A stretch of DNA of 64,000 nucleotides from Beijerinckiaceae bacterium (GTDB lineage: Bacteria; Pseudomonadota; Alphaproteobacteria; Rhizobiales; Beijerinckiaceae): positions 186,001 to 250,000 of the forward strand of contig CANGBX010000001.1 in the NCBI GenBank assembly GCA_947452455.1, in the 5' to 3' direction. The notes under the pieces are model-generated. The model made no database searches and was not told the DNA's origin. It saw nothing but the letters and a program-made list of their open reading frames with translations. This document shows, piece after piece, positions 21,954-46,926 of the stretch. Both the position numbers and the translations under genes were made by a program. How positions within the stretch are numbered: the stretch's first letter is position 1; each line of letters starts with the position of its first letter.

Positions 21954-22415
21954 TCAGAGCTCTTTGCCCAGCAGCCGGTCGGCTGACCATGGTCCGCCAC
22001 CGCGCAGGGCGATGGCAAAGCACATGATGCCCCAGAGCAGCGTGTATTCATAACCCTTGGACAGCCATCCAAAACCATTGCCCCAATAAACAACAAAGGT
22101 CAGGAAGGCCATTTCGATGGCGTTCGCGGCGGCAAAGAAGCGCGTGAACAGGCCCAGCATAATGCAGATGCCGCCAAGTCCTTCAACAAAGGTCAGGAAG
22201 AAGGACAGCGGGAAATTGATGTCGGCCAGATAGGGCACGGTGATATTGAGCTGCTTGGTCTGGGCTTCCATGCCGCGCATGACTTTTCCATAGCCATGCA
22301 CTGCCAGCACCCAGCCCACGCCCACACGCACGACGACCCAAGAGAAGGGTACGGAAAAATTATAGAAGCGCGCCAGTTTGGGAAAGAAGAGCGCGGGTTC
22401 CCGGTCGAGTTTCAT
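21954..22415 (-). CDS. DoxX family membrane protein
   Basis: A 153-residue integral membrane protein with four predicted helices, typical of DoxX/DoxD-like proteins. Examples are VVVRVGVGWVLAVHGYGKVM, FPLSFFLTFVEGLGGICIML and the Gly-Phe turn GLFTRFFAAANAIEM. The family includes subunits of thiosulfate:quinone oxidoreductase and many proteins linked to redox or thiol stress, but most members have no assigned function. It is a single gene, convergent with the LysM-like gene. The upstream 200 bases before the GT17 gene hold no recognisable gene. Confidence 0.88.
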   Translation of the reverse strand: MKLDREPALFFPKLARFYNFSVPFSWVVVRVGVGWVLAVHGYGKVMRGMEAQTKQLNITVPYLADINFPLSFFLTFVEGLGGICIMLGLFTRFFAAANAIEMAFLTFVVYWGNGFGWLSKGYEYTLLWGIMCFAIALRGGGPWSADRLLGKEL

Positions 22416-22614
22416 AGGTCCTCCTCGGTGGGAATCTTATTCGTTCTTCTCGATTCCCTTGGGAAGTAGTTTACAGGGGCTGCGCGCCAGAGGGAAGGCC
22501 AACGGGGGGGCTGTTGGGGGTGTGGGATGCGCTAGCTTGGGGCTTTTTTGGTTTGCATCCAGCCGCCATTGGCCTAGTAATGCAATCAAAGTCCCGCTCT
22601 CATCATCGAAGTTC

Positions 22615-23496
22615 ATGCTGTTCGACTGTTTTACCTTTTATAATGAGCTCGACCTCCTTGAGGTTCGGCTGCATGAGCATCATGCGGCTGTTGACCACTT
22701 TGTTCTCGTCGAAGCGCGCCAAACATTCCAAGGTGTGCCCAAGGAGCTTGTTTTCGAGGCGAACAAGCAACGTTTCGCACCTTTTCTCGATAAGATTATC
22801 CATGTTGTTGTAGATTTCCCCCAGCAGATTTCGCTGAATTATTACAAAAATAGCAATCCTGCCTGGAACCGTGAATTCTTCCAACGCGATGCGATAGCAA
22901 CTGGCTTGCGCGATGCGAAGCCGGGTGATCTGATCATGATTTCGGACGTAGATGAAATTGTTCGTTCAGATATCCTCGCGAGCGCTGTGGCTTCGCATCA
23001 ACATTCTGAGATCACGTTTTTTGAAATGCCGATATTTCAATTCTGCGTTGATCGTCCGACGATCTATAGGCATGATCGACACAGCGATTATTTGTGGATC
23101 GGGCCGCGCATCATTGATTTTTCTCTATTTAGTACAGCGCAAAATGTACGCATGGCGCGCGCCTTTCAGTTTGATCGTTGGCCGACAGCTTGGTTTACAA
23201 AGCTCGTCACAATGATAAAAAATTGGCGCAAGCGTGATTTTTGGGCCAAGCCCATCATCATTCGCAACGCAGGCTGGCATTTCACTTCTATGGGAAGCTG
23301 GGAAAATTACCGCAACAAAATTCAGTCATATAACCACCCTGAATTTTTGAATGATGAAAAATTCAAAAGCGAAGAAGCTTTCCGTGAATTGGGCTATGCT
23401 CAGACAGTCGATTACCCTTTTGAGGATTTGCCCAAGTTCATCCGCCAAAATCAGGATCGCTTTATTTTCTTCGGTGCGGATCGGATTGCGGGTTGA
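22615..23496 (+). CDS. Glycosyltransferase family 17 protein
   Basis: A 293-residue protein of glycosyltransferase family 17, named after the eukaryotic beta-1,4-mannosyl-glycoprotein N-acetylglucosaminyltransferase. Marks are MLFDCFTFYNELDLLEVRL, HFVLVEARQTFQG, the acidic LIMISDVDEIVR and a C-terminal GWHFTSMGSWENYRNKIQS. Bacterial members are thought to decorate surface polysaccharides; donor and acceptor are unknown here. The start is set by the family's usual M-x-D-x-F opening; no good ribosome site precedes it. The gene is AT-richer than its neighbours and stands alone beside tRNA-Thr, which suggests it was acquired. Confidence 0.88.
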   Translation: MLFDCFTFYNELDLLEVRLHEHHAAVDHFVLVEARQTFQGVPKELVFEANKQRFAPFLDKIIHVVVDFPQQISLNYYKNSNPAWNREFFQRDAIATGLRDAKPGDLIMISDVDEIVRSDILASAVASHQHSEITFFEMPIFQFCVDRPTIYRHDRHSDYLWIGPRIIDFSLFSTAQNVRMARAFQFDRWPTAWFTKLVTMIKNWRKRDFWAKPIIIRNAGWHFTSMGSWENYRNKIQSYNHPEFLNDEKFKSEEAFRELGYAQTVDYPFEDLPKFIRQNQDRFIFFGADRIAG

Positions 23497-23640: not shown

Positions 23641-23715
<75 letters not shown>

Positions 23716-35347: not shown

Positions 35348-35515
35348 ATCTGACCTCTGGCTATTCCATCCCTGAAAGCCGTCTTGCTTTTTCATGGGTG
35401 CGGCTTTCTTCGAGTCTAAGCTTGAGGAGGCGTGCGCCTTTTGTCAAAGCAAAAGCCCCTTGGAGAGAGGCGCTGTGGATGCCAAAAGAGCCGGAGCGAG
35501 CTGGAGGAAGCCCCG

Positions 35516-36598
35516 ATGCGGATTGATGGCGTGCCATGCCGGACCATTTGGCCGGAAGCTGATGGAAAAGTCGGGATTCTGGACCAGACTTTGCTGCCCC
35601 ATCGCGTCCAGCGCCTGTCCCTCTCAAGTGCCCAAGAGGCGGCGCGTGCCATTGCCGATATGCAGGTGCGCGGCGCGCCGCTGATTGGTGTCACGGCGGC
35701 CTATGGATTGGCTTTGGCACTGCGTCAGGGTACGGGCGATGCCGCCATGGATGTCGCCATTGAAATGCTCGCAGAAACGCGCCCGACCGCGGTCAATCTG
35801 CGCTGGGCTTTGATGCGCATGCGAGACGCCCTCTTGCCGCTTGCCGTCAGCGCAAGGGCCGATGCCGCTTGGGCACTGGCTGGCGAAATGGCGGAAGAAG
35901 ATGTCGCCGTCTGCTCCGCCATTGGCGATCATGGTCTGGCGTTGATTGAAGAGATCGCGCACAAAAAGGGCCGCGTGAATCTTCTCACCCATTGCAATGC
36001 CGGTTGGCTGGCGACGGTCGATTGGGGCACGGCGACGGCGCCGATTTACAAGGCGCATGACAAGGGCATTGATCTGCATGTCTTTGTCGATGAAACGCGC
36101 CCGCGCAATCAGGGCGCAGCTTTGACTGCCTTTGAACTCAGCCAGCACGGCGTTCCGCATCGTGTCATTGTTGATAATGCGGGCGGGCATTTCATGCAGC
36201 ATGGCGAGGTGGATCTTGTGATTGTCGGCACGGATCGCACCACGCGACAGGGCGATGTCTGCAACAAGATCGGCACTTATCTGAAAGCGCTCGCTGCCCA
36301 TGACAATGGCGTGCCGTTCTATGTGGCCGCCCCATCATCTTCTATCGATTTTGCTTTGCGCGATGGCTTGCGCGAAATCCCGATTGAAGAGCGCCATGCG
36401 CGTGAAGTGACCCATCTGACGGGGGAGACGGAAGAGGGCGCTCTGGCCACCATTCGCGTGACGCCGAAAGCATCTGGCGCGCGCAATCCCGGTTTCGACG
36501 TGACGCCCGCACGCTTGGTCAGCGGGCTCATCACCGAGCGCGGAATTGCGGGGGCCAATGAGGCGGCGCTGGTGGGGATGTTTGCGGATCGGGCCTAA
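35516..36598 (+). CDS. mtnA: S-methyl-5-thioribose-1-phosphate isomerase
   Basis: A 360-residue member of the eIF2B-like fold that converts methylthioribose-1-phosphate to methylthioribulose-1-phosphate in methionine salvage. Marks are [40 protein letters not shown] with the catalytic Cys, [17 protein letters not shown] and the Asp-containing [27 protein letters not shown] is 6 bases before ATG 35516; the in-frame extension to 35432 is not conserved. It is divergent from iorAB. No other methionine-salvage gene (mtnK, mtnB, mtnD) is near. Confidence 0.95.
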
Positions 36599-36613: not shown

Positions 36614-36754
36614 GACCCCCACCCGTCACGCTGCGCGCGACACCCTCCCCTCAAGGGGGAGGGGATGGCTGGCATCATGATCGTGACAAGTGATCCGCGT
36701 GACGCGCTGCATCTGAACTCCCTCCCCCTTGAGGGGAGGGCTGGGGTGGGGGTC
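36614..36754. repeat. Large intergenic inverted repeat
   Basis: The left arm GACCCCCACCC...CCCTCCCCTCAAGGGGGAGGG and the right arm CCCTCCCCCTTGAGGGGAGG followed by GCTGGGGTGGGGGTC are inverted copies, about 40 bases apart. Each arm also holds its own small hairpin around CTCAAGGGGGAG. It is different in sequence from the GTCATTGCGAGCG repeat family. It lies between mtnA and the tRNA-His island, and the rest of 36755-36828 shows nothing. Confidence 0.75.
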
Positions 36755-36828
36755 TGCGCATCTCGCCCGTCAGCGCGCGCCAAAGGGTCGCCGCGCCGAT
36801 CTGGATGGGGAGTGGACTTGAAGAGAAA

Positions 36829-36904
36829 TGGTACCACCACCCCGGCTCGAACGGGGGACCTCTAGATCTATATCTTGCGTTCGAACAAATTGATCTATGG
36901 CGGA
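36829..36904 (-). pseudogene. Decayed tRNA-His copy at the left attachment end
   Basis: The first 40 bases are identical to the 3' half of the intact tRNA-His, including encoded CCA. The remaining 36 align to its 5' half with about nine mismatches and one missing base in the anticodon loop. The GTG anticodon and the D-loop GG are lost, so it cannot work as tRNA-His. The abrupt change from identity to decay suggests that recombination renewed only the 3' half. Confidence 0.8.
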
Positions 36905-37027
36905 TCAGTTAGGTCTGTCTGTAACCCTCTGTTTTTATGGTATTAACACAAGGGCCTAAAAGTAAGGAGTTATTAGAGGAATCCTATCTCTTGTGGCCAT
37001 TGTAATAGAAGTTTGACCACCAGCGAT

Positions 37028-37132
37028 TTAAAGATAATCCGTCGCACCCATCCATCTAACAGCCTCAGCAACTGGCCGACCTTGTACGGTGAGAAATTTC
37101 ACCCGCTGAAGTTTGGCGGCTATCTCTTTGTT
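37028..37132 (-). pseudogene. IS3-type (IS407-like) transposase OrfA fragment
   Basis: On the minus strand a 34-codon open stretch reads EIAAKLQRVKFLTVQGRPVA then EAVRWMGATDYL. This matches the N-terminal helix-turn-helix of IS3-family OrfA proteins (usual form EEIVAKLRQVDVL...G.SV.EAVR.IGVTE). It is blocked by stop codons at both ends. A frameshifted continuation (LNRWWSNFYYN) is visible just beyond, toward 36985. No terminal inverted repeats or OrfB are present, so it is a dead remnant. Confidence 0.68.
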
Positions 37133-37364
37133 TCATGCTTTTTCTAAAGCATTCTAATTCCCTCTCAAGCCTCGTAATCAATACATCAGGGAGGAATACT
37201 TGTAGGGGACAAAACACATAGACGGCGATTGATGTGGCATCTGATCTTCGTACATCGGAGCAGCACCTAAATAATAAATCTTGATTTAGATCTCTACTCC
37301 CGAGCGGGTGATGATTACAATATCGATTATACGTAACTAAAACGTGCAGAACTTGATAATCAAA

Positions 37365-38279
37365 TTAAGTGAAATGCTTATATAATAAAAGTTTTAAATC
37401 TTCATCAATAAATTGGCTAGTTACTGGATCCAAGAACGGCATAATCTTTTCATGAATATATTTATCAATATGGGGCCATCTTTTATTTTCGTTCTCAAGA
37501 AATTTTGTAATTGCACGAAGATCTGAGTTAAAAATTCGCCTCAGAATTAAAATGCGCCGCACGTCTGTAATGTCGAGATGTGAAGAAAAAACGAGAATTT
37601 CATAAATTGTATCTAACACTTCTTCGAGTTTTGGCTTTGTTGTAAGATTATCCCCGGCCTCAGTAAGAAAGAGAGAAATGTTCTGCGTTAGTATCGAAAT
37701 GCGTGATGTCGCGAGATAAGCTTTAAGCATGAATAGTTGATCTTCTCCCCAATAGCGTTGTGAAGGAAACTGTAGATTGTTCTTTATTAGAAAATTACGA
37801 TTGAAAAGTTTGCAGGGCCCAAGGTCCTTGATCGCAGCGCAATGAGAAAAAGGGACGCCTGAGCAAGCATCAATAGATAGAAAGTTTCCGTGTATCTTCT
37901 GATCTTGGCGAAGAGCCATTGGAATAACTATGTCGGAACCGCTCTTCTCAGCTTCGTCAACCATGGACTCTAGAGCTTCAGGGGCCAAGAAGTCATCACT
38001 ATCTAGAAAGAATATAAATTTAGCGGATGACTGCTGTAGGCCAAAGTTCCGAGATGCACCGGGACCACAATTTTTAGCGTTTCTAAAAACCCGTAGCTGG
38101 TCAGGAAATTTTTTTGAAATATCAACCAGCATGTCCCAGTAATCTTTTTTCGAGCAATCATCGACAATGATATGCTCGATCTGTACACGGCTCGCGTACA
38201 TAGAGGATGCGATGGCTTTTTTTATTGAAGTCCTGTTGAAAGTGGGTGTTATAATCGAGATTAGCGGAGCACCAGTCAT
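37365..38279 (-). CDS. Glycosyltransferase family 2 protein
   Basis: A 304-residue GT-A fold glycosyltransferase. The N-terminal nucleotide-binding strand is LISIITPTFNRTS, followed by EHIIVDDCS, CGPGASRNFGL and the metal-binding FFLDSDDFLAPEALE. Further on comes the acceptor-side RYWGEDQLFMLKAYL. It has no membrane helices. It would transfer a sugar to a surface glycan; donor and acceptor are unknown. The gene is strikingly AT-rich compared with everything around it and is the only intact gene inside the tRNA-His element, so it was almost certainly imported. The frame is full length with no disruption, suggesting that it may still be expressed. Confidence 0.9.
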   Translation of the reverse strand: MTGAPLISIITPTFNRTSIKKAIASSMYASRVQIEHIIVDDCSKKDYWDMLVDISKKFPDQLRVFRNAKNCGPGASRNFGLQQSSAKFIFFLDSDDFLAPEALESMVDEAEKSGSDIVIPMALRQDQKIHGNFLSIDACSGVPFSHCAAIKDLGPCKLFNRNFLIKNNLQFPSQRYWGEDQLFMLKAYLATSRISILTQNISLFLTEAGDNLTTKPKLEEVLDTIYEILVFSSHLDITDVRRILILRRIFNSDLRAITKFLENENKRWPHIDKYIHEKIMPFLDPVTSQFIDEDLKLLLYKHFT

Positions 38280-38386
38280 AGTTTTTTCTCGAGAAAATAT
38301 ACTTTTTATGAATTTATTTTATAAATAAAATTAAGCGTATTTATAGCCGTAATAATTTCTCCTAGAATATTAATAGGCATAGATAA

Positions 38387-38461
38387 TTATAGATACTTTA
38401 ATTCATTCAACAGGCTGATCTGGACCTGCCACTTGATTCCACGCTTCCTGATGCTCGCCAT
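38387..38461 (-). pseudogene. 5' remnant of a tyrosine integrase gene
   Basis: Starting 79 bases from the 3' end of tRNA-His, and reading away from it, an ATG opens MASIRKRGIKWQVQI. This is the usual N-terminus of rhizobial tRNA-targeting phage-type integrases (MASIRKR...KWQVQIRRKG). After VQI the likeness ends, AT-rich sequence begins and a stop follows at codon 25. Position and orientation are those expected for an island integrase, so I read it as a deletion breakpoint within int. Confidence 0.7.
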
Positions 38462-38539
38462 CTCTGACCCCCGTTGTGACAAGGGCGTGACAGACTGCGA
38501 ACGGGCTAGGGGAGTTGGAAGTCTAAGTACCTGAAAGAA

Positions 38540-38616
38540 TGGTACCACCACCCCGGCTCGAACGGGGGACCTCTAGATCCACAATCTAGCGCTCTAACCA
38601 ACTGAGCTATGGCGGC
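38540..38616 (-). tRNA. tRNA-His (anticodon GTG)
   Basis: The minus-strand sequence folds as a full cloverleaf. The D-arm is GCTCAGTTGGTTAGAGC, the anticodon stem CTAGA/TCTAG with loop TTGTGGA (anticodon GTG), the T-arm CCCCCGTTCGAGCCGGGG, and CCA is encoded. The acceptor starts at G1 with no additional G-1 partner and ends in A73. This is the alphaproteobacterial form of tRNA-His, in which the usual G-1 identity element is missing. Confidence 0.95.
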
Positions 38617-38691
38617 ACGGCACGTCAGTGCGGGGCGGAACCTAAAAGCAAAGGCCTGCCATTGCAACAGGCTTGCGCCCTCGGGGGAAAC

Positions 38692-38717
38692 AAAAAACGG
38701 GGCCTCGGGGCCCCGTT
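38692..38717 (-). terminator. Terminator of the phasin genes
   Basis: AACGGGGCC-tcgg-GGCCCCGTT has a run of six A on its left side, which is a T-run on the minus strand. It lies 26 bases beyond the last phasin stop codon. Confidence 0.87.
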
Positions 38718-38743: not shown

Positions 38744-39265
38744 TCAAGCGGCGAGTTTCAGGCTTTTTGCGAGCGTCGCTTTGATCGGCTCGACGGATTG
38801 CGTCGAGACCTTTTGGATGAGGTCCGACACATCCTTGGCCGCCGCATTCAGCGTCTCGAATTGCTGGCGCAGGTGCTCATTTTGCAGCGTGATGACATCC
38901 GTCATGCTCTTGGTCGAGAGCAGGGCCTTCACGAAAGCAAATTGCGCATCCGCACTGGCTTGAAACGCTTCAATGGTCTTCACATTGAGATCGGTCACGC
39001 CTTGCGAGACAAGCTTCAAGCTGGCCTCGATTGACGCACTCGCCTCTTCCCTCGCATGACGGATTTGTTCCCTAAAATCGGCCACTTTCTCGATTGAAGC
39101 CTCAAGGGTCTCTTTCAAGGGTTCTTGCAGCGACACTGGCAGCATTTCCGGCACGGCCGGGCTTTCAATGTCAGCAGCAGGTGCTGGCAAAACCGGCGGC
39201 ACGTCAATCGTGACGGGCTCTGCGGCGCGCGCTGCGGCTTTAGGGTTTTTGCGTGGTGTGGGCAT
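38744..39265 (-). CDS. Phasin family protein (longer)
   Basis: A 173-residue phasin. After a Pro/Ala-rich, basic N-terminal region (PTPRKNPKAAARAAEPVTI) comes an amphipathic helical phasin domain of about 110 residues. Within it are SIEASLKLVSQGVTDLNVKT, FQASADAQFAFVKALLSTKS and VITLQNEHLRQQFETLNAAA. Phasins coat polyhydroxyalkanoate granules and set their number and size. AAAGGAG lies 8 bases before ATG 39265. It is the second gene of a phasin pair, 24 bases after the first, and ends in a terminator. Confidence 0.88.
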   Translation of the reverse strand: MPTPRKNPKAAARAAEPVTIDVPPVLPAPAADIESPAVPEMLPVSLQEPLKETLEASIEKVADFREQIRHAREEASASIEASLKLVSQGVTDLNVKTIEAFQASADAQFAFVKALLSTKSMTDVITLQNEHLRQQFETLNAAAKDVSDLIQKVSTQSVEPIKATLAKSLKLAA

Positions 39266-39289
39266 GGAAAGGCTCCTTTCCTGTTGCAC

Positions 39290-46263: not shown

Positions 46264-46926
46264 TCAGTTCAATGTCACCATAATATGCAGGCGGCGCGGG
46301 CCATGTGCGCCCAGCAACAGCGTTTGTTCAATGTCAGCTGAACGTGACGGGCCGGTCACAATATTGACTGTGCGCGGCAGCGCGCCATTGCGGCGAAGCT
46401 TCACCAGCACGCTTTCAAGATCGCCGCTGAGATCGGCCGCAGCCAGCACAACAAAATGATTGTCGGGCAGAAAAGTCAGCGTCACCGGATTATCGGCGCC
46501 CGAAAGCAGCACCAGCGAACCTGTCTCCGACACACCGCCAAAGGCATAGCTGACGGCATTGAGGTCGGCGCCATCCGAGCGGCCTGTTGCCACATCAAGC
46601 CCCGCTGCCTGCCAATCAAGGCCCGCAAGGCGTGCATCTTCACCACGCTTGAGTGCGAGCGGCAGATTGGCTTCGCGCAGAAAGCGGGCGATTTCTTCCG
46701 GCACGGCTTGCGCCGTGTCGAGCACGACAACGGTGGCCGAAACGCGCGTGGCCTCGGTGATGAAAGTCGCCAGACGTGTCGCCGTGCTGCCTTGTCCGCG
46801 GGCGGGAATCGGCCCGCGCGGTGTCTGCTCCAGTCGCTGCGCAACAGCTGCGCGGCGCGTGCTCTCAGTACCCGTCACGCCAAGTGAGCGGCGAATGTTG
46901 GAGAGAATATCCTCGCGCGCGCTCAT
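46264..46926 (-). CDS. lutC: Lactate utilization protein C
   Basis: A 220-residue LUD-domain protein (LutC/YkgG). It opens SAREDILSNIRRSLGV and carries the LUD core VSYAFGGVSETGSLVLLSGA, FLPDNHFVVLAAADLSGDLE and a final RSADIEQTLLLGAHGPRRLH. It is one of three subunits of the LutABC L-lactate dehydrogenase that oxidises L-lactate to pyruvate. Its exact role in the complex is unclear. ATG 46926 overlaps the lutB stop codon by 4 bases, so translation is coupled; the longer in-frame start at 46956 lies inside lutB. Confidence 0.92.
   Translation of the reverse strand: MSAREDILSNIRRSLGVTGTESTRRAAVAQRLEQTPRGPIPARGQGSTATRLATFITEATRVSATVVVLDTAQAVPEEIARFLREANLPLALKRGEDARLAGLDWQAAGLDVATGRSDGADLNAVSYAFGGVSETGSLVLLSGADNPVTLTFLPDNHFVVLAAADLSGDLESVLVKLRRNGALPRTVNIVTGPSRSADIEQTLLLGAHGPRRLHIMVTLN

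Follow-up and report, generated by a model that had tools for sequence, protein, structure and literature searches.

Islands integrated in tRNA genes carry recognisable marks at their ends. In PMC4383910, the Islander approach is described with 2083 islands, whose ends are marked by a regenerated tRNA gene and a displaced 3' fragment, and sites centred on the anticodon form one recognised class for tRNA integrases. CIMEs are defined by retained attL and attR (PMC5704250), and tycheposons are presented in PMC10872708 as tRNA-bordered elements of 4-200 kb that carry a tyrosine recombinase and cargo. Here we describe the tRNA-His locus of a Beijerinckiaceae bacterium, contained in a stretch of 64,000 nucleotides (the window) from a source genome of 13 contigs, 3.05 Mb and 95.6% completeness. 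The 1.7 kb inserted at this locus is very probably the relic of a compact integrative element. An earlier note on the same DNA had already placed an integrative element at the 3' half of tRNA-His, and this claim is supported, as are the integrase start beside the intact tRNA and the single cargo gene; relatives have empty sites.

The tRNA-His site and its insert

The components of the locus, with their positions in the window, are the following:

35432-36598, plus strand: left host flank gene, PF01008 family, which we take to be mtnA
36827-36868: left copy of the 42-bp repeat (attR-like), displaced host tRNA-His 3' half, from repeat comparison
36869-36904, minus strand: degenerate tRNA-His-like 5' half, left end of the element, with two substitutions and one deletion in the anticodon-loop core
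37001-37017, minus strand: left arm-type motif, decayed, GTCAAACTTCTATTACA, with 3 mismatches to GTCACRNNNNNGTCACA
37014-37211, minus strand: transposase orfA scrap; contig C5 and G066 have related scraps, likewise at left ends
37365-38279, minus strand: cargo, intact GT2 glycosyltransferase ORF of 304 aa (PF00535)
38417-38461, minus strand: integrase stub, first 15 codons, starting at 38461 with MASIRKRGIKWQVQI and running downwards
38475-38491, minus strand: right arm-type motif GTCACGCCCTTGTCACA, which lies 48 nt beyond the 3' end of the tRNA and has no mismatch to GTCACRNNNNNGTCACA
38538-38579: right copy of the 42-bp repeat (attL-like), 3' part of the intact tRNA-His, from repeat comparison
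38540-38616, minus strand: intact tRNA-His (GTG), the integration target, found by ARAGORN and Rfam
38744-39289, minus strand: right host flank gene, phasin

The two direct repeats are identical over 42 bp with a spacing of 1711; the earlier note was right that the repeat is exact and in the same orientation, and its length of 40 bp is to be extended by two bases. An intact tRNA accompanied by a displaced 3' fragment in the same orientation is the arrangement by which Islander-type islands are recognised. In the source genome 42 tRNA genes passed the cut-off, and this one is the only tRNA-His; within that set it is also the best match of the left copy. Rfam did not call the left copy as a tRNA. 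When the flanks were joined by script, 36827-36868 and 38580-38616 formed a complete tRNA-His, identical to the one that the relatives G071 and G066 have at their empty sites. Beyond the exact repeat the left copy continues, after a one-base deletion, into the tRNA-His-like 5' half with 26/32 identical nucleotides from position 36872, a feature absent from the earlier note. Overall, the left copy shows 10 differences in 78 nt; the probability that a random spread leaves all of them outside the exact 42 is P = 2e-4, for a boundary that was chosen after inspection. A 21-bp perfect inverted repeat is also present near the left copy (36643-36740), and it is part of a short repeat for which the genome gave many matches.

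Similarity to tRNA-His thus extends along the entire left copy, as expected of a decayed tandem tRNA, and this counts against the relic reading. It could be explained by a tandem duplication of tRNA-His in which the left gene decayed and foreign DNA landed between the copies. We consider this very improbable and reject it: identity shifts abruptly from 42/42 to 26/32, the repeat ends at the edge of the tRNA and does not extend into the host upstream DNA, the integrase stub and the motif are positioned as in the ends of the family elements described below, one of which (L281) likewise keeps part of the 5' half of its tRNA at its left end, and the two relatives with an empty site have one tRNA-His copy each.

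The comparison of the site was made with mostly draft genomes. The left flank gene was matched in 35/51 genomes, the nearest being those of G071, G066 and G027 with 94%, 84% and 82% protein identity, respectively. As the earlier note had asked of close relatives, the site proved to be empty in the two nearest, G071 and G066, where tRNA-His lies at most about 100 bp after the left flank gene. The third, G027, has the same site occupied by about 3.4 kb of different content, with an FkbM-type methyltransferase (PF05050) and another short integrase stub; the left repeat there is ragged. Between the window and G027, identity is 91.1% in the stretch from attL to the integrase (124 nt), 86.7% in the DNA just upstream of the tRNA and 78.2% in the flank gene; these short stretches hint that elements of one kind may have entered the two genomes independently. 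The more distant genomes in the genus were uninformative on the site because the flank gene and tRNA-His are mostly on different contigs.

Counted at three mismatches or fewer, the 3' 40-mer of tRNA-His has at least one copy in 45 of the 51 genomes and two copies in five of them (the source genome, G007, G068, G021 and G073). G007 has exact 48-bp copies, which run through the anticodon loop and enclose a 17-kb element with an integrase at its distal end (L050, G007:C19, 1047-17984). The anticodon-loop letters CACAAT or CATAAT are kept in seven out of eight further tRNA-His copies (L165 is the exception, and L166, cut by a contig end, may be an ordinary tRNA), and therefore the crossover was placed in the anticodon loop.

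The insert between the repeats has a G+C content of 0.398, as compared with 0.574 for the window, and the cargo ORF is the only intact gene recognised in it, in agreement with the previous description of AT-rich DNA with one intact glycosyltransferase gene. That description also held for the very start of an integrase, which consists of 15 codons in a frame that reads 31 aa and then stops, short of a full-length integrase. With regard to the piece of an IS3 transposase that had been proposed, the transposase part is supported by the homologue on contig C5, which when read across one stop matches PF01527 (Transposase) at 7.9e-6; the window's own scrap, like the other short orfA scraps, gave no match in a Pfam search, and IS3 is a presumed label. 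In the region 36800-38700, promoter-like sites showed no excess (3 versus a shuffle mean of 4.5), and terminator-like sites a slight one (4 versus 1.9).

A compact family of elements beside several tRNA genes

The DNA around the integrase stub matches places beside tRNA-Val in three other genomes, as well as the tRNA-His site of G027. A complete integrase of 353 aa (PF00589) from the tRNA-Thr site of G027, used as query, found matches in 41/51 genomes, many of them weak. The survey covers the stronger ones, which adjoin tRNA-Val, Thr, Arg and Ala according to ARAGORN, apart from three loci for which ARAGORN gave no tRNA (L282, L283 and L285) and which were set aside from the 19 right ends considered. 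Three elements are complete, with displaced tRNA-Val 3' parts that match at 40/40 positions, and they measure 2.9 kb (G027:C22), 4.2 kb (G073:C75) and 4.5 kb (G066:C133). Besides its integrase, the last encodes a DUF3987 protein and a protein of 157 aa, and a second integrase comes after it in tandem, so that the locus (L292, G066:C133, 1-6617) holds two tandem integrases in tRNA-Val(CAC); an orfA scrap is present at the left end of its first element and another past the second integrase. Among the 17 right ends in which the state of the integrase could be assessed (L289 and L156 are truncated by a contig edge), 9 integrases are full length, including that of L279, which leaves its contig after 331 aa, and 8 are broken, those of the window and of the G027 tRNA-His site included; for L284 and L286 the state was taken from the integrase-match search and the tRNA survey.

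A prominent feature of these ends is a motif, GTCACRNNNNNGTCACA (GTCACR-N5-GTCACA), formed by two GTCAC boxes 11 nt apart and located between the tRNA and the integrase. With two mismatches or fewer it is present at all 19 family right ends, window and G027 tRNA-His included, the motif having been defined from the same sequences and the ends chosen for a tRNA beside an integrase match. In 15 of the 19 it lies 47-49 nt past the CCA. It was found in none of 40 control flanks of other tRNAs from the source genome, which are shorter than the family ends (mean 97 nt versus 170 nt) but long enough to cover the usual motif position, and in 15/2000 shuffles. In the whole window, one mismatch being allowed, the motif occurs twice: the exact copy of the right end and a one-mismatch copy on the other strand at 46344. 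In the window the integrase start comes directly after the motif, as in the compact family; a genus search for the motif and the integrase start at a fixed spacer of 15 found this combination in 1/51 genomes, most family ends, the window's among them, lacking that spacer.

At left ends the motif is exact in 4/4 cases, that is, in the three complete elements, where it precedes the displaced tRNA part by 129, 143 and 152 nt, and on contig C5. The C5 motif is 112 nt before a tRNA-like 5' half, and the decayed one of the window 113 nt before its own; the C5 distance was measured to the 5' half, hence the motif is some 36 nt farther from the core. The GTCAC boxes may be regarded as putative arm sites of the integrase.

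The parent of the relic was likely a member of this compact family; only 15 integrase codons are left, so that its assignment to the family relies largely on the motif and on the spacing of the latter. The relic itself would be a decayed descendant and not a working member. It could also be proposed that a large genomic island or a prophage was reduced to the present remnant, since the losses from the insert could be of any size and the tRNA-His of G007 does hold the 17-kb element with its integrase. This is unlikely: the integrase of the G007 element is at the opposite end, the motif is absent from the 200 nt examined there, and the ends in the window match those of a family with three complete members of 2.9-4.5 kb. 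Titles and abstract starts of the matches listed in the open-access literature contained no description of such a compact tRNA family.

Another aspect of this family concerns a degenerate chimeric tRNA in the source genome (C5:227249-227322, or 5250-5323 of L051), in which two halves are joined near the anticodon: the 5' half is closest to tRNA-His (31/34) and the 3' half to tRNA-Thr-GGT (37/39). The DNA upstream of it is common to the left end of the window relic, arm and part of the orfA scrap included, at about 69% identity. Downstream there are an amino-acid permease and a Usp gene, which in G071 come after an intact tRNA-Thr. The tRNA-Thr of the window (23641-23715) is followed by a GT17-type gene (22378-23496, with 46.8% G+C over 22510-23496) and then DoxX, at the place where G071 has the permease and Usp; the GT17-type gene is possibly the cargo of another tRNA element, and the arm motif was not found within 300 nt of this tRNA-Thr. 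A family element with a tRNA-His 5' half may once have been located in tRNA-Thr, the segment having moved later within the genome; its identity to G071 is 79.4%, as compared with 91.7% for the window's flank gene, which speaks rather for an outside source. A tentative proposal, which we hold to be possible although doubtful, is that an undescribed family of very small elements, composed of an integrase and a few cargo genes, moves from the anticodon loop of one tRNA to that of another and that its left ends can retain the 5' half of a former target, the C5 chimera, with the arm of the window relic, being the fossil of a switch from tRNA-His to tRNA-Thr. If the chimera is a scar of switching, the change of target by tRNA-specific integrases becomes directly testable.

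Cargo, proposed history and mobility

The cargo ORF carries a GT2 domain (PF00535 at 5.4e-27), and it matches the structures 5tze (9e-22) and 6h1j (3.3e-16), which we take to be TarS and TarP, respectively. The DSDD and EDQLF stretches of the protein, presumably with a catalytic role, align with 5tze. By sequence these enzymes belong to the same GT2 class, and tarP genes are also carried by phages; the phage tarP records are only 29.3% identical to the cargo, however, and the host in this case is an alphaproteobacterium. The cargo has matches in 56 phage and 494 plasmid records, none of which reaches 60% identity, and the relatives in phage records include tarP and GtrB-like genes; a viral-contig scan, with a reach of close relatives only, confirmed no phage origin. 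Glycosyltransferase matches exist in 41 of the 51 genus genomes (its own included), the best other one by E-value being 29% identical (5.7e-19). It is plausible that the cargo decorates a surface polymer.

The following sequence of events is proposed. A tyrosine integrase of the compact family would have exchanged strands in the tRNA-His, with a crossover presumably in the anticodon loop. The element would have brought a new 3' half that kept the only tRNA-His gene whole, and would have moved the original 3' half of the host 1.7 kb away. The cargo and its AT-rich upstream DNA would have been flanked by the integrase on one side and the left arm on the other. Beyond about codon 15 the integrase would then have been lost by deletion, and the decay of the left core and arm, in an order that we can only suppose, probably fixed the element in place. 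The addition of a typical 1-kb integrase to the present 1.7 kb gives about 2.7 kb, which would be near the smallest complete relative. The complete relatives are only 2.9, 4.2 and 4.5 kb long, which leaves the integrase body as the chief visible loss; consequently, of the internal deletion to a single cargo gene previously envisaged, the loss of the integrase body and the single cargo gene remain, whereas a larger parent becomes needless. Nor is a one-gene relic as unusual as had been thought, integrase stubs being common in the family. Simple decay after integration explains poorly the three core changes that lie beside 42 unchanged bases; the core may already have been mismatched when the element arrived, or the intact gene may have served as template for a conversion of the 3' half.

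The persistence of both end repeats raises the question of mobility. A still mobilisable CIME, devoid of integrase and either excised in trans or moved by accretion with a later element, would agree with these repeats and with the definition by retained attL and attR given in PMC5704250, and the two family integrases in one tRNA-Val of G066 give an example of a tandem. The 42 bp are retained at both ends, but the core differs between them: the left copy reads TATA-T versus CACAAT, so it no longer matches the right one. In addition, the left arm motif is decayed, and the family integrase had no match in the source genome (95.6% complete), which has five other PF00589 proteins. A mobilisable CIME is therefore quite unlikely, and on these sequence features excision by a borrowed integrase, an idea put forward in the earlier note, also appears unlikely. 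Elsewhere in the genome, a 400-aa tyrosine integrase (C1:8188-9510) has next to it a partial tRNA-like 3' sequence (E 0.36), which may be a second attachment site.

The locus shows how one probable surface-sugar gene, brought by a small element, can become fixed next to a single-copy tRNA once the integrase has been lost. The link between the stub and intact relatives in sister species makes the size, ends and targets of the parent family measurable.

Comparison with known systems

The closest counterparts of the relic are the compact elements of G066, G027 and G073 (L292, L280 and L281), with which it has in common the arm motif and its spacing, the integrase start and the tRNA 3' repeats; the orfA-bearing left end is common to the relic and L292. 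In contrast to the relic, these three have intact integrases, are located in tRNA-Val and carry other cargo, i.e., a DUF3987 protein in L292 and small ORFs in L280 and L281.

With the islands mapped by Islander (PMC4383910) the relic shares the regenerated tRNA and the displaced 3' fragment at its ends; the procedure requires an integrase gene and only the 15-codon stub lies between tRNA and fragment, so the relic was not filed as an Islander-type island. Similarly to a CIME (PMC5704250), it lacks integration and transfer genes and has both end sites recognisable. It departs from a CIME in its changed left core and arm and in showing no sign of a conjugative ancestor; as a CIME it is, for these reasons, probably not functional. 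Tycheposons, as described in PMC10872708, resemble it in the tRNA border, the tyrosine recombinase and the cargo, and differ in their size of 4-200 kb.
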